This document shows positions 2,117 to 57,145 of a DNA stretch of 64,000 nt, piece by piece. Under the pieces are notes generated by a model. The model was not told the origin of the DNA. It did not search any database and saw only the letters and a program-made list of their open reading frames with translations. Both the position numbers and the translations under genes were made by a program. Source of the stretch: Pyrinomonadaceae bacterium (GTDB lineage: Bacteria; Acidobacteriota; Blastocatellia; Pyrinomonadales; Pyrinomonadaceae). The stretch spans positions 62,001 through 126,000 of the forward strand of contig JACMJZ010000029.1 in NCBI GenBank assembly GCA_014380365.1, read 5' to 3'. Each line of letters starts with the position of its first letter. Position 1 is the stretch's first letter.

Positions 2117-2962
2117 CTAGGGCTTAATTACCTTCACCTTATCCAACTCAAGCCACGTCTTGGGACCTATAATGCCGTCGGGCACTAGATCGTGCGCGCG
2201 CTGGAACGCGCGAACGGCGGCTTCGGTCTTTGGTCCGAAGTTACCAATAGCAGGCTGCACTTTCAGTTCCTCCTGAACGCGTTTAGTCAGATCTCCTTTC
2301 ATGCCACGCCGCAGAGTAGGCCGGCGAAGGCCACCCGGCTGAGCGGGCGGCTCGACCGGTGGGATCAAAACTGGCTTAGGTGCCGTACCTTCAAGAATTG
2401 CTTTGACGCTCGACCGAAAGGCGTTCATGTCGAGTCGGGGATCAAGAGGTTTACGCTTGGGCGCATATTCTTTGTGTCCGCAGCAAGACTCGGCCCCCCG
2501 ACCGATGTGTCTTAATATCGCCGCAACGCCGCGGTAGTAGGCGTCCAGTTGCACTTTGGGCCAGGGGAAATCATTCATCTCCCCGCCATTTTCCGCCTCG
2601 ATACCGATAAAATTGGAGTTGCCGTTTACGATGTCCTGAAAACTGCCCGCTCCGGCGTGGTTGGCCCGTCCTGCGGTAATCACATAGTAGGTGCCATCAC
2701 GAGCAAGACCGAGTTGGGCGAGAGGGCCGGGCAAGGCCCTTTTCGCCGGGCGCCCCGGGCGTGCGGGCTGCGCGGGACGCCCGTTGACGAGGACGTTGAG
2801 GCTGGGCATGTTTCCCGTTAGCCCTCCAACAGTGTGGTGGCAAATAACTCCGAAGATCCGGCCGACGTCAAGCTTCCCTCGGTTTTCCCAGCCAGGAACT
2901 TTGGACACTTTCAAGTCGGCACGCGTAAGTACTTCCGGTAACCAAATTAAGGAGTGTGCCAT
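2117..2962 (-). CDS. N-acetylmuramoyl-L-alanine amidase with C-terminal peptidoglycan-binding domain
   Basis: An Amidase_2-type zinc enzyme that would cleave the amide bond between muramic acid and L-Ala. Zinc-ligand candidates are visible in ICHHTVGG and ANHAGAG, with GHKEYAP and LDPRLDM as the third region. After a Pro-rich linker comes a PG_binding_1 domain (RGMKGDLTKRVQEEL to FGPKTEAAVRAFQRAHDLVPDG). I chose the ATG at 2962 because AAGGAGGT lies 10 nt upstream and the previous gene's TGA is only 1 nt away. A longer form from 3001 would overlap that gene. No clear signal peptide. With its neighbour it forms a two-gene unit of unknown purpose; phage lysin-like, but no phage genes are near. 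Confidence 0.85.
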   Translation of the reverse strand: MAHSLIWLPEVLTRADLKVSKVPGWENRGKLDVGRIFGVICHHTVGGLTGNMPSLNVLVNGRPAQPARPGRPAKRALPGPLAQLGLARDGTYYVITAGRANHAGAGSFQDIVNGNSNFIGIEAENGGEMNDFPWPKVQLDAYYRGVAAILRHIGRGAESCCGHKEYAPKRKPLDPRLDMNAFRSSVKAILEGTAPKPVLIPPVEPPAQPGGLRRPTLRRGMKGDLTKRVQEELKVQPAIGNFGPKTEAAVRAFQRAHDLVPDGIIGPKTWLELDKVKVIKP

Positions 2963-2963
2963 G

Positions 2964-4256
2964 TCAGCCCACACCTCCTTTCGTTGGGGGTAGATCCTCA
3001 TCCGGGGTCACGTCGTCGATCGGATCGTCGCCCTCATCAAGGAAGCTTTCGTTGTCCACAGCATCCGGCGGTGCATTGAAATCGGGCTCGGGGATTGCTG
3101 GGGGCTCGGGAAGAGTTCGGGACGCGCTGGCCAGACCAGGATCAGACACCATGCCGAACCCGGACATCGGTACGGAAGGGCTTGGGGCGCCGGCTGTTGC
3201 GAGTGTCAAATTCCTGTTTGGTTGCCGATCCTCGGAACCTTCCTCCATGCTTTTCTCATGAGGCTTAACGGTGGCCCGAATTACCAGGAACTTATTCAAG
3301 AGGTCGAACCAGAAAGGAGCGCCGAGCGAGATGGCCGAAGCGGTAAGAAGCCACCCGAGCAACGGTAATAGGAAGTGCGACCAGGTATTGTAGTTCTCAT
3401 TCTTTAGCGGATTGATGAAGTCAATACCATTGGGCCACCCGATCGGTAATCCCAGCCCTTCAAGGTCTTTTCTGTTCTTCTCGAAATCTGCGTTTTGAGC
3501 ATCGGCCCGGTTAACACGCCCCTCCGCTTGAGCCACCATTACACTGCGTAACGTGGCGTCGGTCGAGAGGCGCCTGGCAATCGTGATGGTGTTAACATTC
3601 AACAAAACGGTAAGGGTGAATCCCAAGGCAAAGATGATCCATTTAACTCGTCGCGTATACGCCCCAGAAACACGATCCATCGATCCATTAAACCAACTCT
3701 CAACATTTGCCCGCAGCGCATTGACGTCGGCCCCCGACTGCTCGGCCAGCGCTCTCAAAGCCCGCCCAGCCTGCTTGTTTCCCAGGTTCTCTCTCAACGC
3801 AGACCGTACGGCGTCCATTGAGACAGGAAGCACGGCGGAGTCGATTGCAGAAACGCGCACGCCTGCTGCATTAGCGTCATCTCGAGCAGGGTCGGTTTTG
3901 GCTTCGGCGGGTGGATGCAGCGCTATATCGATAATCGCGTAGGCAAAATTGCGGGCCGGAATATAGGAAGGTAGGTTGGTTGATTTCAGGTAGTCGCGGA
4001 ATCCCACCGCCCCATTGTTGCTATGCCCGTACTTTCCGGGAAACAAGCCATTGATCAAGGGATGGTTATAGAATTTTGCCACCAGATCGCCCCCATCCGT
4101 TTGATTGAAGAGTTCTCGGATCCCCCGCTCAAGATCAGTAGCGCGATTTTTCAGAAAGGATTCGATTATCTCGTTCGCGGCAGAGCAGATAAGACTCATC
4201 AGGAGGTAAACGAAGACCAGGCCAATACCCACCTCGATTATTGATGTAGCAAACAT
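2964..4256 (-). CDS. multi-pass membrane protein of unknown function
   Basis: A 430-residue protein I cannot assign to a named family. It has a membrane segment at about residues 6-24 (GLVFVYLLMSLICSAANE), another near 205-228 (IIFALGFTLTVLLNV), and a hydrophobic pair near 290-325, separated by soluble stretches. The last 90 residues are rich in Pro, Asp and Glu, a likely cytoplasmic or disordered tail. The start ATG at 4256 has GAAAGGAG just upstream. Its TGA is 1 nt from the amidase start (TGACATG), so the two are almost certainly co-translated. A role in envelope or peptidoglycan processes is inferred from that coupling only. Confidence 0.7.
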   Translation of the reverse strand: MFATSIIEVGIGLVFVYLLMSLICSAANEIIESFLKNRATDLERGIRELFNQTDGGDLVAKFYNHPLINGLFPGKYGHSNNGAVGFRDYLKSTNLPSYIPARNFAYAIIDIALHPPAEAKTDPARDDANAAGVRVSAIDSAVLPVSMDAVRSALRENLGNKQAGRALRALAEQSGADVNALRANVESWFNGSMDRVSGAYTRRVKWIIFALGFTLTVLLNVNTITIARRLSTDATLRSVMVAQAEGRVNRADAQNADFEKNRKDLEGLGLPIGWPNGIDFINPLKNENYNTWSHFLLPLLGWLLTASAISLGAPFWFDLLNKFLVIRATVKPHEKSMEEGSEDRQPNRNLTLATAGAPSPSVPMSGFGMVSDPGLASASRTLPEPPAIPEPDFNAPPDAVDNESFLDEGDDPIDDVTPDEDLPPTKGGVG

Positions 4257-4494
4257 TCGTGGCTCCTTTCAGAACGATGAAGTTTCATTGATAAGGTGAA
4301 CGATCCACCCTTTGTTTGTAATCTGCGGCTTGCTTCGTGCACCCCGCGACTTTGTCAGAACCGCCTGCGGTAGCCGGCGGGCCAATCAGTTCCGACGGGG
4401 GCAAATTGGGGCCAAATTCAAGGTCTCTAATACCTAATGGCTAAAAGTGAGTTTCCATTTCAGCCTCGCGATGGGCAGGAGGACTGTGTATCAC

Positions 4495-4750
4495 ACCGCT
4501 TGAGCACTCTGGCTTATCGCTCGTGCACGATGTCACTACGCTTGTGCGCTATCTCACACCGCTTGTTCATGCTGCCGCGCCACTCGTGTACTCCTGCGTA
4601 GTGACTGTGCGGTCTCCTGTATCGATTGTGCGGTCTCATGTATCGACGGTGCAGCCACGTGTAGCGGCTGCGCATTCTTGCGTACGGACAATGCACTCTG
4701 ACGTACCGGCGGCGCATTCTCTCGTGCCGACTGTGCGGGGGAGCTGCGCG
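4495..4750. repeat. degenerate 21-bp tandem repeat, about 12 copies
   Basis: Reading in 21-nt steps aligns recurring words such as GACTGTGCGGTCTCCTGTATC, GATTGTGCGGTCTCATGTATC and diverged forms of them, about twelve units in all. The period equals seven codons, so it stays open on both strands in places, but no start or codon pattern convinces me it is translated. It lies between the membrane-protein gene and the duplicated unknown gene. 4257-4494, upstream, holds nothing I can name. Confidence 0.75.
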
Positions 4751-4751
4751 T

Positions 4752-5495
4752 CTAGCCCCGCTGGCTTTTTCGTTCGAATTTCAATCCCTTGATTTGTTTG
4801 TAGAGTTGGCTCTGAGTTCCGAACGCGGCGCTGACATAAGCCTTCACCAGCAACGCCGTGTTAACCACCGAATCAGGCGCTGTGTAGAGCACTTGATCGC
4901 GTGCGCCGCGCGCCTGGCCAAGCGGCACAAAACTCGCGCTGACGGCATTGTTGGCTGCCTTCAACTCAGCCGCAAATGCTTGCAGGGCAACGACCTTTAG
5001 CTCGGCTTCATTTGGGTTGTAAGACGGAATATTACTCAAAAGTGCCACAAAGCTCTCGACGTTTCCTACTTGATTGTCGTAGCTCATTTGCGACGTGGAA
5101 TGAGTAGCACTAGTCGCGGTGGCTTCGGTTCCCGAGGTGTTTGGATCGTCCTTGGGCGGTTTCGCCTTGCGCGGACTGCTCAGTCTGCGGCGAGAGCTAT
5201 CGAGGTCGTCGAGAATGGATTTGTCCGCGCCGGAAGCTTTCGCCATCCGGAACGCGCTGCCGGTTCTACGCGGCACATCCTCGAATTTGGTCTGCCGGTT
5301 GTTAACCGCGACTTTGTACGGAGCCGATTTGGTGTTTACGTCCGTGGCCACGGCCTGCCCCGACGTGTAAAGCGTTTCGAGCGCGGTCTTGGTGATATTG
5401 GGATTCGTCGGATTGTAGGCCGGATCGACGGAAACGTGATCAATCAGTTTACGGAAGTTCCCGAGGAGCTTCATATCTCCTGATTCGGTGGGCAT
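4752..5495 (-). CDS. unknown protein with internal duplication
   Basis: A 247-residue protein of no recognised family. Two halves look homologous: residues about 14-105 around DPAYNP, and about 147-240 around IPSYNP, each followed by a helical, Ala-rich stretch and a conserved-looking Arg. The YNP motifs are 132 residues apart. The linker between them is charged then Ser/Thr-rich. No signal peptide, membrane segment or catalytic motif is visible. The ATG at 5495 is preferred over 5579 because GAGGAGGG lies about 10 nt upstream and the extra N-terminus is unlike the rest. The 21-bp repeat array starts just after the stop codon. Confidence 0.65.
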   Translation of the reverse strand: MPTESGDMKLLGNFRKLIDHVSVDPAYNPTNPNITKTALETLYTSGQAVATDVNTKSAPYKVAVNNRQTKFEDVPRRTGSAFRMAKASGADKSILDDLDSSRRRLSSPRKAKPPKDDPNTSGTEATATSATHSTSQMSYDNQVGNVESFVALLSNIPSYNPNEAELKVVALQAFAAELKAANNAVSASFVPLGQARGARDQVLYTAPDSVVNTALLVKAYVSAAFGTQSQLYKQIKGLKFERKSQRG

Positions 5496-5787
5496 AGCGT
5501 GAGTCCCTCCTCTGGTGAAGTGGGGTTTTAAGAGCCGAGGTCCGGATGAACCAAAAACTCTGGTCCCCGCAATTAGCAAAGTATTCGCACCATTAGCGAC
5601 TGGCGGTATGTGGTGGCGAATTAACGAGGCTGAATCGGCGAGTTGCGTTGAGGCAGCTTGTGGGAGTCAGCCGTTAGGGTCCATTACAAAAGAGCTGCAA
5701 GGTAAGCGGCACGATATGCCTGGAACCGTCAAAAGTCAATCAATTTTTGCGTCAATTTTTGCGGCGCAGCAGCCGGCGGCAGTTCTT

Positions 5788-6525
5788 CTACTTCTCGATC
5801 TTCTTGATCAAGCGGGCGGCGTGGTTGCGAGCGATGAGGGGGAGGTGTTCGTCGGTGGTGATGTCCTTCAAGAGCGGCAGGAGTTGTCGCGGGTCGGAGA
5901 GGCCGTTGCGTTTTAATTGCAACTCCAGCTCCTCCATCAACTTCGGACCATTCAGCGGCTGCGTCTCGCGGGCGACGGAAATATCGAATACCAGAATCGC
6001 CTGGTCGGCTACCCGCCGGTATTCAGTGACCAAAGCGAAGGCATTCGGGTTTTTCGTCCAGTTGAATTCCGCAGTTCGTTTGCGCTCATCCTCGGCCATG
6101 CTAAGCCGCATCGTGCCGAGGTGTGGATACTGCCGCTCTGATTGGTAGTTCTCTTTAGAATCGAGGAAGTGCAAGGCCTGCCATAAGCCGGAGATGCGAG
6201 CGAGCGCAGCAGGCGAGATTTCCAGGGGATCGACGATTGGCGTCTCCTGGCGTAGCCGTTCAAAAGTGATTCGGCCCTGGCCGTTTGCGTCGTGCTCGAT
6301 AGTGATGCGGCGCACGTGGAATTCAGATTGGGTAAACTCGTAAACGAATTTCGCCGAGCTCCGTTTTGTTTCGTCGGGTTTAGCCGGCGACGATGCGGGA
6401 GTTGAGACTTCGGGACGTGCGTTGTGCTTGCCGGCAGGTTGTTGCGCAATACCAAAAACCGCCGCGCTCAGAAGAACGAACGCAGCGGGAAGAAATATGA
6501 GAGGTTTGAAAGTCTGCTTTGTCAC
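5788..6525 (-). CDS. secreted hypothetical protein
   Basis: About 245 residues. A basic N-terminus is followed by a hydrophobic stretch (PLIFLPAAFVLLSAAVFG) and AQQ, a normal signal peptide for export across the inner membrane. The rest is a mixed alpha/beta domain with no motif I recognise. I place the start at GTG 6525; a longer version from ATG 6624 would put the dispersed CACGGAT repeat inside the protein ahead of the signal peptide. No strong ribosome binding site is visible, so the start is tentative. It lies downstream of smc's stop, in the same direction, with a repeat-filled gap of about 240 nt. Confidence 0.6.
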   Translation of the reverse strand: MTKQTFKPLIFLPAAFVLLSAAVFGIAQQPAGKHNARPEVSTPASSPAKPDETKRSSAKFVYEFTQSEFHVRRITIEHDANGQGRITFERLRQETPIVDPLEISPAALARISGLWQALHFLDSKENYQSERQYPHLGTMRLSMAEDERKRTAEFNWTKNPNAFALVTEYRRVADQAILVFDISVARETQPLNGPKLMEELELQLKRNGLSDPRQLLPLLKDITTDEHLPLIARNHAARLIKKIEK

Positions 6526-6598
6526 CTGGCTGTTTGTGATGCGTATTCTAGGCGAAAGAAACGCCGAAGGGAATTCAGCGGGAGAGGGCGCAGAAAGC

Positions 6599-6712
6599 AG
6601 CCACGGATTTTCACGGATAAACACGGATCAGAACCTGAAGAGGGAAAGAACGATGTGCGCCTAAGAAGGATAAACTATTTTCTGATCCGCGTTTGTCCGC
6701 GGAAATCTGCGG
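6599..6712. repeat. inverted repeat of CACGGAT-type words
   Basis: Arms 6599-6631 and 6681-6712 are built from (C/A)ACGGAT and ATCCGTG-like words and are complementary with mismatches. The same family recurs at 33779-33875. Confidence 0.8.
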
Positions 6713-6728
6713 CGGGTTCGCGCCTGCG

Positions 6729-6762
6729 GCGCTCATTGCAGGCAGGATGCCTGCGCTCCCAG
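6729..6762. repeat. second copy of the GCAGGCATCCTGCCTGC element
   Basis: An exact reverse-complement copy of bases 2001-2034, placed 5 nt past the smc stop codon. It contains a short perfect palindrome (GCAGGCATCCTGCCTGC core), so it could also form a hairpin at the end of the smc transcript. Confidence 0.85.
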
Positions 6763-6767
6763 CCTGG

Positions 6768-10990: not shown

Positions 10991-13900
10991 TCATCCGGAC
11001 GACTTCGCCACGCGCAAGAACTGCAGGGCGACGTGCCGCAAGACGCTGCCAAACTCCTTTCGTGCGTTTTCCGCGGGAGTCGACGGTTCCTGCGTAGCTT
11101 GCTGATTCCCCGACGGACTCCCGGCGAACCGCTGGCGATATTCCCCCGAGATTATGAAGGATCTGACCATCTCGGCCCTTTGCACGCGTCTAAACGCCAC
11201 CGTCTCGTCGCGCGCGTCTTCCCCAGGCTGGGTAAACGAATTCAGCTTATTCAGCCAGAAATCGTAACCATTGAAGTTGTTGTCGGGCGCGTCATCCGGG
11301 TTCCTTCGCAGGTAACCGTAGTACTGCATCAGCACGAAGGCCGGGTTGTAAAGAGTGTTGAAAACGGAGCCGCTCTGGATGACCGACTTCAGCGCCTCCA
11401 CTCTTCCAGTCCTGTCCCCGCCGCCGTAAGCGTCGATCGCCGCCTGCCGCTCGGCTTGGGTCGGACTGGCTCCCGCGTTGGTGAACAACTTGCCGACGTA
11501 CCCGTCAGGCGACATGCCTGCGGGGAATTGCGCGGTAAACTCCGCCCGGGAAACGAAATCCTCCAGGTAACGCTGACGGTTATTCTCCAGCTTGGCTTCC
11601 CAGCCAGGCGCCCCAACCACTAGGCCCTCGCCTATAGCCCGCTTGTCCTTTGAGAGCACCGCATAGCGAGGTATTGATTTCGCTGCCCCGAACGCGGACT
11701 TGTGGGCCCGGATTACGAAGTAACCCGTCTGCTGAAACTCGATCGAGAGGAAGAAAGCTGCGGACACGTTGACTCGCTTCTGGTCAAGGCAACCTGCATC
11801 CGTTCCGCAAGGTTCGATCTGTCCGGTCCAGAAGTTTTCGCCTGCGTCATCAGCCTCACGGTCAAGGAAGTCATGATAATGCTGGCAGACGAACGTGCGC
11901 GCCACGTCTATCGGATTGGTGCTCGGCTCTGACGAGTCGTCAGCGATCTGAACTGTCGTCGTGGAGGCCGCACCAAGGCCCGCGTTGGTTGGGTTTGAGA
12001 GCGTCAAAGTAAACGACTCAGATCCCTCAACGTAGGCGTCTTCGCTGATTAGCACGGGCAGATCCTTCTGCGTTTCTCCGGCTTCGAACACCAGAGTGCC
12101 CGCGATGAAGGTGTAGTCGCCCTTCTGTCTGGCCGTGCCGTCGTTGCTGTTGACGTCAACGGTGGATCGAGCGGTCGTCGGACCAGTGCGCACAACCTGC
12201 GCAATGACCTGCGTGCAGTCCTCGACGCTCGGGATGAGCGTGGAGCTGAACTGGATCACGGTCGGGGTTGGCGTAGGCGTCGGGGTCGGCGTCACCGTTG
12301 GTGTCGGCGTCACCGTTGGCGTCGGCGTCACTGTGGGCGTCGGCGTTACCGTAGGCGTCGGCGTCGGCGTCGCTGAACTTGAGGCGACGGTTATGTTTTG
12401 AACATTGCTGTACGGACTCTCGACGGCCGCCGAATTGACGGTATAGGTGGTGCGCACGCGGTAGCAGTAGGTACCAACCGCCCGCGAGAGTGTCTGAGAA
12501 GTACTGCTGGTGGTTGCAACAGTTGTAAATGCGGACGCTGTAATCGCGATGTTGTCGATGTACCAGCCCGCCTGCTGCCCAACATTGAAGGGGTCGCTCG
12601 TCACGCGGAAGCGAACCTTGATTGATTGGCCTGCAAACTGTGAAAGGTTGACGGAGCGCGCCCCCGTAAAGACGTCTGCCGGAGTGAGACCCGCGGGACC
12701 GGTGTAGTTGGCGACTTCGGTGAAGGCTCCGCCATTGGCGCTCACCTCAACGTGGCCGAAGTCGAAGCCGTCCTCGAGTCCCTGCCTGGTTGTAAACGTC
12801 AGCGCCGCTGAAGCGCCGGCCGGGATCGTCACCGCGTTCTTCATCACAAGCGCGTCGTCCTGCTGGACGCCATCCGGCACATGGTATGCGGTGCTACTGT
12901 CGGTCGGGTTCGCTTGTGTGGTCCACTGTGGCGTGCCGTCCCACTTCGAATTATCTCCTGCAACAAGCACCTCCGAGGCGTCGTCCGAGAAGACTGGTCC
13001 GCAACTTGTGGATTCCTGGAGCGTGTCTGGACCGGTCGCGCCTGCCGGACGAGTCCAGTTTAGAGTGAAACTGCCGTTGGTGTCGGGGTTCTCATAATCG
13101 GCGCCGGCGGAGAGCACCGGTGCGCTGAATACCGGGCAGTTAAAGACGCGCACGGTGTCAACAAACCAGCCAAGGTTGCCATTGCAGCCGTCCTGACCGA
13201 AGTCAAAACGGATTTTGAATTTATCACCTGGGTTGGTGAGACCTGAGAGATCAACAATAGTCGTCCCCCATGAGCCGACCAACTCGCCTTCGTTAGTACC
13301 CTGCCAGGCCTGCTCGCCGGCCATCGGATTTGTGTTGCCGTCCGCGGTGCTCGCCAGTGGTGCATTGGGAGCATTGAAGACGTAGGCGCTCTGCGGCACG
13401 AGCGTGAAGGCTCCGCCATTCACACTGATCTTGAGATTGCCACCATCGAACTCAAGTTCCGTCTGTAAGAAGTGTTCGAATTTCAGCTTCAAGTCGGAGG
13501 CGCCGGCGGGGATGGTGATCTCGGGGGTATCCATCCAAAAATGTCCGCTCACGTCGCCGCCCGGCTGACAGGTTCCGCCGTCGGGCTCGCCGATTGCCGG
13601 ATTGATAGCGAAGGCTGCGGTTCCTGTGTGGGCGGTGCCGTCAAGGTTCTGCGGCAGGCCCGACGACTTGAGGGTCCAGTCAGTTCCCGGCCAGTCAGGG
13701 GTCACGCCCTCATTGCCGACCGCCCAACCGTCCATTCCCGTTTCCCAGTCTTCGGTAAAGATCGTGTTGGCGCCGTTGCAATCCGCGGGTGTATTTGGGT
13801 CGAGAATCTTTTGGAAGTTGCACTGGACGAACACGTCCTTGCTCATCTCAACAGCCTTCATTGCATTGTCCACCTGTTGACAGGTAGTGATGCTGATCGT

Positions 13901-15847: not shown

Positions 15848-18800
15848 TTAAGTCGCCACGCGTAAAAACTGCAGGGCCACGTGGCGCAAAACGCTACCAA
15901 AGTCTTGCGGCTTGCTGTCCGCGGTTTCCGTTGTGTCCTGCTTCGACTGTTGATTCCCCGAGGGACTTCCGCCAAACCGCTGGCGATATTCGCCGGAGAT
16001 GAGGAACGACCGAACCATCTCGGCCCTCTTCACCCGGTTGAACGCCACGACTTCATTCCGCACGTCCTCGCCCGGCACACTGAACTCCTCCAGCTTGTTG
16101 AGCCAGAAATCGTAGCCTGTGAAGTTATTGTCCGGCGCGTCGTCGGGGTTACGCCTGAGATAACCGTAGTACTGCATTAAGACAAACGCAGGATTGTATA
16201 GCTTCGAGTACACCGAGTTGCTATCGGCGACGCTGCGAAACGCGCCCACGCGTCCAGCCTGATCGCCGCTTCCGTAGGCTGCAATTGCCGCGTTTCTTTC
16301 TGCCGTCGTCGGTGTCGCGCCGGCGTTGGTAAACAACTTGTCCACATAGAACGCGGCTGTCGAGCCCTGCGGAAACTGAGTTACGAAGTCGGCGCGCGAA
16401 ACAAACTCATTCAGGTAACTCTGTTTGTTTTGCTCCAACAACTGCTCGGCGCCCGCCTGGCCAATGACGACCCCCTCGCCAATCTGCCGTTGGTCGCTGA
16501 GGAACACAGCGTAGCGCGGATTACTCTTGGCGCTTCCGAAGGCAGACTTCTGCACCCGGATTACAAAGTAGCCGGTGTTCTGAAACTCGATCGAGAGGAA
16601 GAAGGCCGCTGAAACGTTGACGCGCTTCTGATCAAGGCATCCCGCGTCGGAGCCGCAACTCGCCGTCTGGTTAGTCCAGAAGTCCTCACCAGCCTGGTCG
16701 GAAGGCCGAGCCAGGAAGTCATGGTAGTGCTGGCACGCGAAGATGCGCGGATCGTCGATCGGATTCCCAGCCGTTTCAGTCGGATCGTCGGCAATCTGCA
16801 CCGTCGTGGTGGCAGCCCCTCCCAGCGTGGCCCCGCCCGTCGGGTTCGACAAGGTGAGTGTGAACGACTCCGGTCCTTCGCTGTAGGAGTCTTCGCACAT
16901 GAGCACCGGCACATTTTTCTGCGTCACACCCGTCTCGAAAATGAGCCGGCTGACTGCATTTGTGTAGTCGCCCTTCTGTTTGGCCGTACCGTCGTTGCTA
17001 ATCAGATCAACTGTGATACGTCCACTGGTGGTCCCAGAGCGAATGACTTGCACGTTTATCTGTGAACAGTCTTCGGTCGCTGCATAGACCGTGGAACTGA
17101 ATTGCACGACTGCGTTCGGAAGAGGTGTCGGCGACGCGCTCGGCGTCGGCGTCACGGTTGGCGTCGGCGTCACAGTCGGTGTCGGTGTTGGTGTCGGCGT
17201 CACGGTTGGTGTCGGCGTCACAGTTGGCGTTGGCGTCGGCGTTGGTGTCGGTGTCGCATCAACTCCCATGTTATTGATGACCAGGTTGTCGACGTACCAA
17301 CCGCTGCTTGCGCCCGCGCCTGTGCCGGCGTCCGAGGACATCCGGAAACGAATGAACACCGGCGCCCCGCCAGGATTGTGCAGCCCGCCCGGGGCAAAAT
17401 TCTTGAGCGAGATCCGCACATGATCCAGATTCTTAATGCCCGTGAACGCGCGGCGTCCTTGCAGGTGGGATAAGAAAACCGGTCCAGCCAACGTGCCATT
17501 GAGATTGTCGTTGTAGCCGCCTTCAATCATATAGTCACCGAGATCGAAGGTGCTCGTGTTGTCAGGGAACGGTGTGGAGTTGAAATTCGGACCACCGATG
17601 GCAATCTCCATCACGCCGCCGTCAAAGTGGGCTTCCGTGCGGAAGAAATGATCAAAGTCCATGATGGAAGCAGCGGTTAGGGTCAGCGGCCCGATTACCG
17701 CGGGGATATCACTTGCCGCGCCGTCGGAACCGGGGTCGAAGTCGGGAGCATACATCATAGATTCGATGATGCCGCCACCGAGGTCTATTCCAGTCACACG
17801 CTGCCAAACCGGCTGATCTTCCTTGGGATCATTGCCGGATTCCGACAGCGGCGGTGCGAATCGTGTGTCCGCCGTTGAGCTTCCGAAATTCTCGTGCGGG
17901 AAGGGCGGATTGTTCTTCACTGGAATGATGGTGGGCGCACTCCATTTTGTCACCGTGTTGCCCACGTTGTTGGTGTCTTTTTTGTTGTTGGTGGTATCGC
18001 GCGCCTGCACGATGTAGTAGTAGACCTGGTTGAGGGTCAAGCTCGTGTCAACATAGGATGTTCCGGTCACGCCCTGGGCTATGCGGTTAGCCTCTGCAGG
18101 AGCGAACGTCGGATCCGGTTCCTCAACAGTGGCTGAATAGCGACTGTGATTCACGTGATCCACCCGGAAAATATCGTAAACGAGGTTGGCCGTCGGCTTC
18201 GTTGAAGTCGCGGGCTTCCAACTCACGATCAGGCGATCTCCTTCTTTCGGATCGGAGACTAAATCGATGCCGGCGAAAAGCGGGGCGGGCTCAAGCGCCA
18301 CCCCTACTATGATCGTGATGCTCTGAGTATTGGCCGTCGAGATGCATTCAGGGTTACGGCTTGCGCGCACTTGGTAGAAGTACGTCTGGCCCAGCACGAG
18401 TCCTTGTCCAGCGTTGTTGTCATCATAGGTGACTTGTGTGGCTGGAATCTCAGCGATGCGAGCAAACGGTCCGTTGGCGCTGCTGGCCCGCGAAATAATA
18501 TAAGTGGCAGCACCTACTACCGGAGTGATGGTGACTTTAACCTCATTGGGAACCAGGTTGGACAACGCAAAAGTGGGCGCTGGCAGAGGCCCCACTTGTT
18601 CACACTGCGTTACGCCTGCCGGAACGCTGAAATCCTCGACCACGGCTGGCGCCGACTGGCTGCCGGGGTCTTCGCCCGCGCCGGAAGTGGATTGAGCTAG
18701 CAGCCCGATGCCATGGCTGGCGAAGGAGCGCCAGATGACGGCTTGGTTTTCCCCACCAGTGAGTTCGCGATCGGCCAGCAGGATGGAATCTCGCGAATCC

Positions 18801-50843: not shown

Positions 50844-50934
50844 AATTTCCTCAGGGATGAAGTCGGAAGGATGAAGGATGAAAACATTTGTTTCATCTCG
50901 ACCGCTTCATCCCTCATCCTTCATCCTTCATCCT
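50844..50934. repeat. spacer element, GGATGAA words (rpsH-rplF)
   Basis: GGAAGGATGAAGGATGAAA words face CATCCTTCATCCTTCATCC; strongly complementary. A sister element sits between tRNAs at 60860-60945. Confidence 0.85.
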
Positions 50935-51327
50935 TTAATAAATCTGCGCCAACAATTCCCCACCTACATTTTCACGTCGAGCAGCCTTGCCGCTCATCAG
51001 CCCCTTGGAAGTAGACACGATGTTAACGCCATAACCATTGAGCACTTTCGGAATCTCACCGGAGCCCACGTAAACACGACGTCCGGGTCGCGACACCCGT
51101 TCCAACTTGGTGATCGAAGAAGTGCCACGCGCATCGTAGCGAAGAAAAATGCGGATGGTGCGCTTAACGCCCTCGCCCTTGATGACGAAGTTATTGATAT
51201 AGCCTTCTTCTTTGAGAATGCGGGCAATCTCGAGCTTCAATCTCGAGGCCGGGATATCCGCACGCGTGTGCTTCGCCGCAATCGCATTGCGGATTCGCGT
51301 CAACATATCGGCGATAGGATCAGTCAT
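50935..51327 (-). CDS. rpsH: 30S ribosomal protein S8
   Basis: 130 residues. Seen: TDPIADMLTRIRNA, KGEGVKRTIRIFLRYD, RVSRPGRRVYVG and VSTSKGLMSGKAARRENVGGELLAQI, all typical. S8 binds 16S rRNA and, in E. coli, its own spc mRNA. Confidence 0.98.
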   Translation of the reverse strand: MTDPIADMLTRIRNAIAAKHTRADIPASRLKLEIARILKEEGYINNFVIKGEGVKRTIRIFLRYDARGTSSITKLERVSRPGRRVYVGSGEIPKVLNGYGVNIVSTSKGLMSGKAARRENVGGELLAQIY

Positions 51328-57050: not shown

Positions 57051-57059
57051 AGCTTAAAA

Positions 57060-57145
57060 AGTTTCGAGTTTCAAGTTTCGGGTTTCAAGTTTTCATCGTC
57101 CCGAGTTTCTCTTAACTTGAAACTCGAAACTTGAAACTCGAAACT
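57060..57145. repeat. inverted repeat, GTTTCGAGTTTCAA words (rplW-rplB)
   Basis: Arms 57060-57091 and 57114-57145 match 31 of 32 as reverse complements. The right arm runs into rplW's stop codon (57144-57146). Confidence 0.95.

Follow-up and report, generated by a model that had tools for sequence, protein, structure and literature searches.

Genes of one nameless protein family, here called FAM, are regularly associated across Bacteroidota and Acidobacteriota with a non-coding tandem array in which the period is fixed and the letters are free. The association of gene and array, the 21-nt period, the non-coding character of the arrays, the rarity of indels in them, the internal duplication and basic charge of the protein, the solo arrays, and the attC-like sites at 13 loci are all obtained by calculation. 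What we infer is that FAM binds the array, with which stoichiometry it does so, that DNA and not RNA is its target, and that it may also act in trans. In the reading that we tentatively prefer, and hold to be quite possible though short of probable, gene and array form a compact, horizontally spreading two-part element in which FAM would bind the array as DNA, with one monomer per 21-bp unit. The element is small and occurs in cultured type strains. Literature searches with most subscription journals outside their scope found no description of the FAM family or of such arrays. Non-coding satellite families that have spread and have long repeats, over 30 nt in the table concerned, are reported for only two of the species covered by a survey of prokaryotic satellites from 2019 (PMC6749651).

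The FAM gene of the window (the whole 64-kb stretch of DNA that was analyzed) begins with an ATG at 5495 and ends with a stop codon at 4752-4754 (Table 1). A sequence-only reading of this DNA had described about twelve diverged 21-nt units beside a gene for a 247-residue protein. The array was indeed recovered as a segment at ~4486-4735 with a score of 83, the sole lag-21 segment in the 64-kb window, and Tandem Repeats Finder (TRF), the check proposed at the time, returned 21-nt pieces at 4518-4566 and 4598-4670. The array comprises ~11.9 copies of mutually diverged 21-nt units and begins 15 nt past the FAM stop codon; it adjoins the gene directly, as had been said, with the correction that it lies on the 3′ side of the gene, at lower window coordinates. 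No second copy of it was found at the DNA level in its own genome, and no Rfam family matches it at E 0.1. At the other lags from 15 to 27, the window has segments at 18 and 24 only, arising from repeats near 12.2 and 17.1 kb. At 12261-12372 and 17124-17258 lie repeats of 18-nt and 6-nt period, the former being the in-frame, PTPTVTP-rich linker of a 1560-aa gene.

Table 1. Features of the FAM locus, in window coordinates
Feature	Position	Strand	Basis
FAM gene, 247-aa protein	4752-5495	minus	ORF; homologs; AlphaFold2 model; homologous halves
Degenerate non-coding array, ~12 units of 21 nt, 3′ of FAM gene	4486-4741	minus (gene orientation)	Lag-21 score 83 and TRF pieces
5′ flank of FAM gene, up to same-strand ORF at 5788-6624	5496-5787	minus	Gene map
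Membrane-protein/amidase pair near the array	2964-4256 and 2117-3001		ORF map; family search

In terms of surroundings, the promoter and leader of the FAM gene would fall in its 5′ flank, where one sigma-70-like site was found, at chance level. The membrane-protein/amidase pair that the sequence-only reading had placed just beyond the array is present but incidental; it is taken to lie outside the unit because no neighbor family recurs widely at homologous loci (the commonest is found at 6–8), and no conserved operon partner of FAM emerged across these loci. Comparison with the genus of the window gave no element boundary; the flanking SMC-side genes are 67–79% identical in the main matches. 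The source genome (4.98 Mb) has two further FAM paralogs, 51–54% identical, both with a 21-nt array 3′ of the gene that starts 35 and 308 nt past the stop codon, respectively, and has a quite different unit sequence. Near the array of one FAM paralog (L003, 637-825), a pair of Acido-Lenti-1 RNAs (Rfam RF01687) is found, one oriented opposite to the other. Elsewhere in the window, ~6715-6763 is a 48-bp intergenic repeat, probably REP-like, that is dispersed through its own genome and the genus at 80–100% identity, and the region 38400-61700 contains many short tandem repeats of 7-nt period, composed of hairpin-forming heptamers and arranged as neighboring pairs, some of them clearly inverted copies (for example, 50855-50882 with 50905-50935 and 57059-57092 with 57114-57145).

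The sequence-only reading had suggested a search for arrays of the same period behind homologs of the protein, and most homologs have one. Loci were picked by protein alone, in a scan of a species-genome collection with a five-row alignment as query that yielded 76 loci, mostly from Bacteroidota. A lag-21 score of at least 32 was reached in the 3′ flank of 73 of the 78 family loci scored, versus a maximum of 17.7 in a control of one mononucleotide shuffle per 3′ flank; L052 and L084, with less than 120 nt of 3′ DNA, were left out of this scoring. Among 76 5′ flanks, 17 exceed 17.7, three score at least 30, and two at least 40, the largest value being 68.7. By TRF and autocorrelation, lags of 21, 42, and 63 lead in most of the 3′ flanks and seldom in the 5′ ones. 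With a score cut-off of 40, a lag-21 array is present in the first 700 nt past the gene at 64 of 76 loci, lags of 15, 20, and 25 occur once each in that interval, and the remaining lags of 15–27 are absent (the window, scored apart, is excluded from these counts). The distal sequence of the family loci, 459 kb in all, contains 8 lag-21 arrays and 1–8 arrays at other lags, from which ~0.9 loci would be expected by chance to have a lag-21 array within 700 nt.

The five low scorers among the 78 loci are L029, L039, L048, L051, and L099. The contig of L029 stops 129 nt past the gene, and at L048 a 21-nt array of 19.7 copies sits 1.4 kb further downstream. Full-length relatives without a 21-nt array are L039/L011, L051/L012 (which has 22- and 44-nt repeats further downstream instead), L014, L024, L027, and L028; homologs without any array, named by the sequence-only reading as what would speak against it, thus form a minority. 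In the array-less L039, the next gene (4872-5907) is, judged by eye, DNA cytosine methyltransferase-like, and a similar gene is present in the L084 locus. A search of the acidobacterial phylum gave 13 full-length loci, a set in which L013 has just 105 nt of 3′ sequence and L011 and L012 repeat L039 and L051; six of the 13 have a 21-nt array (L015, L016, L021, L022, L025, and L026), with lag 14 outscoring lag 21 in L021 and the array beginning 779 nt past the stop codon in L025. The array is absent from all four truncated acidobacterial copies. A 5.7-kb IMG/VR “viral” contig, L105, carries a FAM gene and the same array as the Bacteroidetes contig L072, and may be a mislabeled bacterial piece.

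Arrays have a median length of 12 units (10–90% range 9.5 to 17). Their phase is held far more strictly than their letters: 2 phase shifts were counted in 18,137 array positions, alongside 5,412 mismatches. A simulated single central indel was detected in 149 of 325 trials, with 4 false positives in 325, which indicates that the true number of indels is small; indels at array ends can escape the scored segment, as in L064. The similarity of unit profiles between arrays is at chance level below ~35% protein identity and reaches 0.50 at 60–80% identity and 0.78 above 80%, so that distant arrays have no common unit sequence, yet keep the period of 21. From ~35% protein identity upward, forward similarity of the units exceeds that of the reverse complement (compared without a significance test). 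Within a protein clade, a unit motif recurs across species and genera, one example being AATTCCTATTAACGCATC, common to Flavobacterium, Chryseobacterium, and Polaribacter loci; the phases and windows of this comparison were picked to fit, which favors agreement. In F. croceum and its relatives, the first and last units are recognizable across copies and species, so that they appear to be of some age and not the product of recent slippage; the arrays of L092 and L064 are nearly homogeneous. A check for palindromic units gave best dyad scores of 4–8 of 9 (without a control). Directly behind the 29-unit array of L087 starts a Flavo-1 RNA (5361-5437; Rfam RF01705). For the coding, hairpin, lag, indel, fold, power, and spacer-block tests, the duplicates L100, L105, and L058 were removed, L095 was also excluded from the indel/fold, power, and spacer-block tests, and arrays of fewer than 8 units were excluded from some tests.

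Conservation of the array was compared with that of the gene and of the DNA after the array in eight locus pairs. In four pairs, array and gene are conserved to about the same degree, and the DNA beyond the array has diverged: L041/L049 (array.892, gene.891, after.645), L043/L050 (.891,.901,.66), L093/L095 (.856,.91,.679), and L034/L050 (.767,.758,.565). In the other four, the gene is clearly better conserved than the array. The array is the least conserved of the three parts in L041/L043 (.689,.904,.92) and L063/L104 (.817,.936,.964) and intermediate in L093/L096 (.637,.889,.528) and L091/L092 (.654,.807,.569). Between L041/L049 and L043/L050, the proteins hardly differ, a C-terminal GQA being the only consistent residue difference, yet the array types do, with units that are partly common and otherwise distinct; a tight, sequence-specific coevolution of protein and unit is therefore unsupported.

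The FAM protein is basic (median pI 9.38; 5–95% range 8.95–9.68), and its AlphaFold2 model, made with 69 sequences, has a mean pLDDT of 90 and is all helix. The sequence-only reading had noted a shared (D/I)P-x-YNP motif in the two halves and had proposed structure prediction as a check. Both points stand: the motif occurs as DPAYNP and IPSYNP, one per half, with its YNP / YxPN core kept in the 69 members (Y27, P29, Y159, P161, and N162 are each present in all of them or in no fewer than 90%), profiles from the family alignment identify the halves as homologous (hhalign probability 96.8%, E 2.3e-10, 79 columns), and the model has a similar helix order in both. The statement that no family explains protein or array was likewise upheld by searches of Pfam, NCBIfam, PHROGs, PADLOC, and Rfam. 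Among the matches listed, no scanned member is above a curated cut-off in Pfam, NCBIfam, PHROGs, or PADLOC, and no named family is common to more than four of the 69 members (for Pfam, among the matches listed, which give 25 of 49 families). The window protein matches DUF6261 (PF19775) weakly, at approximately residues 134–189 (16.2 bits, E 0.01); membership was rejected, as the curated cut-off is 27 and one of 69 members matches at E ≤ 0.1. No DNA-binding domain and no nuclease domain was recognized in FAM.

Foldseek searches with the model against the PDB and viral models gave no match at E ≤ 0.001, and of two PDB sequence searches one gave a single match, at E 1.4, and the other none. Among the VIA-align neighbors of the model, the S23-family chain 2rld_C ranks first (Z 10.6, rmsd 2.8, 107 residues), and a chain from a retroelement complex, 8ub7_C, which we take to be Avd of the diversity-generating retroelement complex, is near the top (Z 8.7, rmsd 3.7, 105 residues). 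A Z under ~13 for helical bundles may reflect a common arrangement only, and the predicted resemblance of FAM to S23 and Avd is a lead only.

The distribution of FAM is patchy. Homologs were found in 10 of 396 genomes of the phylum, including that of the window (three of the 10 with fragments only), and in 26 of 150 Flavobacterium genomes; the gene was found in none of 15 other genomes of the genus of the window. Twenty genomes chosen as carriers have 1–11 matches each, and the copies, several in number, sit in varied surroundings, in some cases on contigs that measure hundreds of kb. Phage and plasmid records (72,556 plasmid records) gave no match with one Bacteroidota member, L098, as query. 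With neighboring ORFs called mechanically at ≥110 aa, the closest ORF upstream shares the strand of the gene at 58 of 71 loci (p 6e-8) and is of varied kinds, and the downstream ORF shares it at 42 of 62.

In several Flavobacterium copies, the shared sequence runs from approximately 55 nt ahead of the ATG through gene and array into a tail, which consists of a long imperfect stem and a terminal ACGTT. The attC sites of integrons have a stem with the same kind of ending. A covariance model from five tails found 22 sites in 78 sources, and one round of refinement raised this to 28, in both cases all on the strand of the gene. An attC-like site lies past the array in 13 of the 78 sources, 277–519 nt behind the FAM stop codon; five of these 13 loci trained the first model, and eight are outside the first training set. 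Such a site was not found in the window. An integron integrase above the TIGR02249 cut-off is present in none of 18 genomes, so that clusters of attC without an integrase are possible; weaker tyrosine-recombinase matches occur in all 18 and in 13 of 14 controls. Cassette-type loci without FAM have attC-like sites, and a 21-nt array in 0 of 11. The Flavobacterium loci L156, L158, and L159 (G439, G435) contain runs of attC-like folded sites, ~470–1300 nt apart and in one orientation, as cassette arrays with no integrase over the NCBIfam cut-off.

Arrays are also found away from the gene. They were searched for with a model of three clade-7 units that uses sequence only, and were termed solo if no FAM gene lies within the stretches fetched. 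Four are present in F. bernardetii (G439), three, first detected by DNA search, in F. terrigena (G430), and others elsewhere. Solo units resemble the gene-linked array of their own genome in G453, G430, G455, and G451, and in G453 the consensus of the solo array, which sits at a contig start, is identical to that of the gene-linked one. The solo units of G439 are closer to the gene-linked type of F. terrigena than to the array of its own intact gene, and the solo arrays of G550 are of a type absent from its only detected FAM gene. Three of the four solo arrays of G439 contain blocks of two unit subtypes that share a core; in L204, L206, and L207, from this species, the blocks read ...CTCCGACAA... 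and ...TATCGGGAA... around one core.

A scan of 150 Flavobacterium genomes with stricter filters found clade-7 arrays, linked or solo, in 7 of 26 genomes with the gene versus 2 of 124 without it (p 6e-5), and in 4 of 23 versus 2 of 124 when the three training genomes are omitted (p 0.006). For solo-only arrays, the counts are 4 of 26 versus 2 of 124 (p 0.009), and 2 of 23 versus 2 of 124 without the training genomes (p 0.12). The loss of significance in this last comparison makes a trans link between FAM and the solo arrays weak, and we regard such a link as suggestive only. Both gene-less genomes contain real 21-nt arrays, of ~10 and ~6 units (L226 and L227), which are hardly of the clade-7 motif; arrays can therefore stand without a detected gene.

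A length of 21 bp corresponds to two turns of B-DNA (2 x 10.5). The element can be pictured as a basic, pseudo-twofold helical protein and, on the 3′ side of its gene, an array of 21-bp DNA sites in cis. Each of the homologous halves of FAM would face one helical turn, all sites would share one face of the helix, and the bound proteins would stack into a nucleoprotein cluster; solo arrays elsewhere would be bound in trans. An action of FAM on DNA fits the duplicated basic protein, the two-turn spacing, the rare indels with tolerated substitutions, and the distant sites. As the role of the complex, we favor maintenance or autoregulation of a selfish cassette, with local silencing and insulation as alternatives. 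A further reading, which we consider unlikely but worth stating, is that of a new kind of bacterial nucleoprotein element, in which a pseudo-dimeric FAM would pick its sites mainly by their 21-bp spacing and less by any single fixed sequence, and would serve as a self-spreading chromatin- or centromere-like organizer with beside-gene and solo arrays, partly cassette-borne and present in at least two phyla. If FAM reads spacing more than sequence, this would be an unusual mode of bacterial site recognition.

Other explanations of the arrays have to be weighed against binding as DNA. The sequence-only reading had offered two, a former coding region or selection on the array as DNA or RNA. A heptapeptide repeat protein, former or present, would fit the period, as 21 is 3 x 7, and the 67-aa open frame that covers much of the window array, but over 70 arrays neither open frames nor mod-3 variability depart from the controls: a fully open sense frame is present in 19 (17.7 expected from column-permuted units), an open antisense frame in 18 (16.3 expected), and the variation has no 3-periodicity. 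Coding is thereby refuted as a general explanation and is scarcely credible otherwise, which leaves selection as DNA or RNA as the favored half of that alternative. Units that carry short variable guides for the adjacent protein, in a TIGR-like or CRISPR-like manner, would match the layout of a single protein and a downstream array with a locus-specific repeat that is described for TIGR-Tas (PMC12045711). Such an array is nevertheless very unlikely: at p<0.05, variable columns form spacer-like blocks in 4 of 65 arrays, where 3.25 would be expected, with a mean blocking of.149 versus.131 in the control, a slight but consistent excess; some arrays are nearly homogeneous, the period is 21 rather than 36, and FAM has neither a recognized nuclease domain nor a family found in more than four of 69 members. 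The array could also be passive, or a selfish repeat: a mobile element would end in a minisatellite-like tail that FAM does not bind and that has spread with the gene, by integron-like cassettes and by other routes, with 21 inherited from one ancestral array. The patchy distribution and 1–11 matches per genome, the attC-like sites behind 13 arrays with every model match in gene orientation, and the solo arrays even where no matching gene or no gene is detected are all consistent with this notion; drift, however, should add indels, of which the phase shifts are so few beside the mismatches, and neither the retention of period 21 by distant arrays without a common unit nor the gene-like conservation of the array in four of eight pairs is what it predicts, so that we judge it rather improbable.

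Another reading is at the level of RNA. The array would be transcribed, as a 3′ UTR or a separate RNA, and bound by FAM, to act as a sponge, an antitoxin-like RNA, or a source of ~21-nt small RNA. In many loci the array lies within a few nt of the stop codon, a terminator-like hairpin follows the array at 17 of 70 loci, the units hold one orientation relative to the gene, and the fold neighbors include S23 (2rld) and, presumably, Avd (8ub7 chain C), although at Z values that for helical bundles may mean a common arrangement only. Both strands fold somewhat better than column-permuted copies, which counts for this reading; against it, the sense strand is no more stable than the antisense strand (z -0.87 sense, -0.86 antisense). 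A terminator-like hairpin also separates gene and array at a minimum of 22 of 70 loci (27 including five within 83 nt of the stop codon), by a rule that allows 35 nt of overlap and gives counts without a shuffled control, and at those loci the array is probably off the main transcript of the gene. Together with the lack of an Rfam family on the window array, these points make action on RNA doubtful, and binding of the array as DNA is the reading that we prefer.

In comparison with known systems, TIGR-Tas combines a single protein with a downstream array whose repeats are constant within a locus and variable between loci, and its units contain two spacers and yield 36-nt RNAs (PMC12045711). FAM arrays differ from this description in their period of 21 and in lacking clear spacer blocks, and a dual-spacer unit was rejected, as most arrays have no spacer-like block. 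No Nop family is among the Pfam matches listed (25 of 49 families) or in six members scanned separately, and no Nop fold is among the best 50 Foldseek and VIA rows. A CRISPR array, whose near-identical repeats alternate with unique spacers and which is accompanied by cas genes, was rejected as well: the units run head to tail without spacers, Cas models match one member each, weakly, and no neighbor recurs widely.

Type III toxin–antitoxin systems (ToxIN, CptIN, TenpIN) have an array 5′ of the toxin gene, a longer structured RNA unit, and a beta-rich endoribonuclease. The FAM element resembles them in a gene beside a tandem array, a terminator often between the two, and a patchy distribution; it is not one of them, with an array that is 3′, a 21-nt unit, no strand-specific fold signal, and an all-helical model. 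The S23/Avd four-helix bundles are among the best VIA-align neighbors of the FAM model, but there is no sequence match, the matched part (residues 58–190) extends across both halves, and unrelated bundles reach such Z values. Integron cassettes are similar in that 13 of 78 sources have an attC-like folded site past the array and neighboring cassettes have such sites too, and dissimilar in that no attC-like site was found in the window and 0 of 18 genomes have an integrase over the cut-off.

ParR/parC and similar centromeres consist of a small DNA-binding protein and adjacent tandem repeats of 10–21 bp. A small protein gene with adjoining tandem repeats is common to these and to FAM; in contrast to them, FAM is predicted to be an all-helical bundle and has no recurring partner motor gene, and no ParR or ribbon-helix-helix family is among its matches listed. 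The centromere systems are set apart by family searches alone, whereas for iteron origins, type III systems, and TIGR-Tas a defining feature of each was checked and found to differ. At iteron origins, plasmid Rep proteins act together with iterons of 17–22 bp. An iteron plasmid with its Rep protein was rejected, since no Rep family is among the Pfam, NCBIfam, or PHROGs matches listed and no plasmid record matched the one member used as query; the FAM array is moreover 3′ of the gene, its unit is not conserved family-wide, and the gene occurs in several copies at varied sites, in part on contigs that reach hundreds of kb. What the two have in common is the arrangement itself: next to the gene of a protein lie tandem sites with a spacing of about two helical turns, with the protein as the trans component and the array as the cis component.
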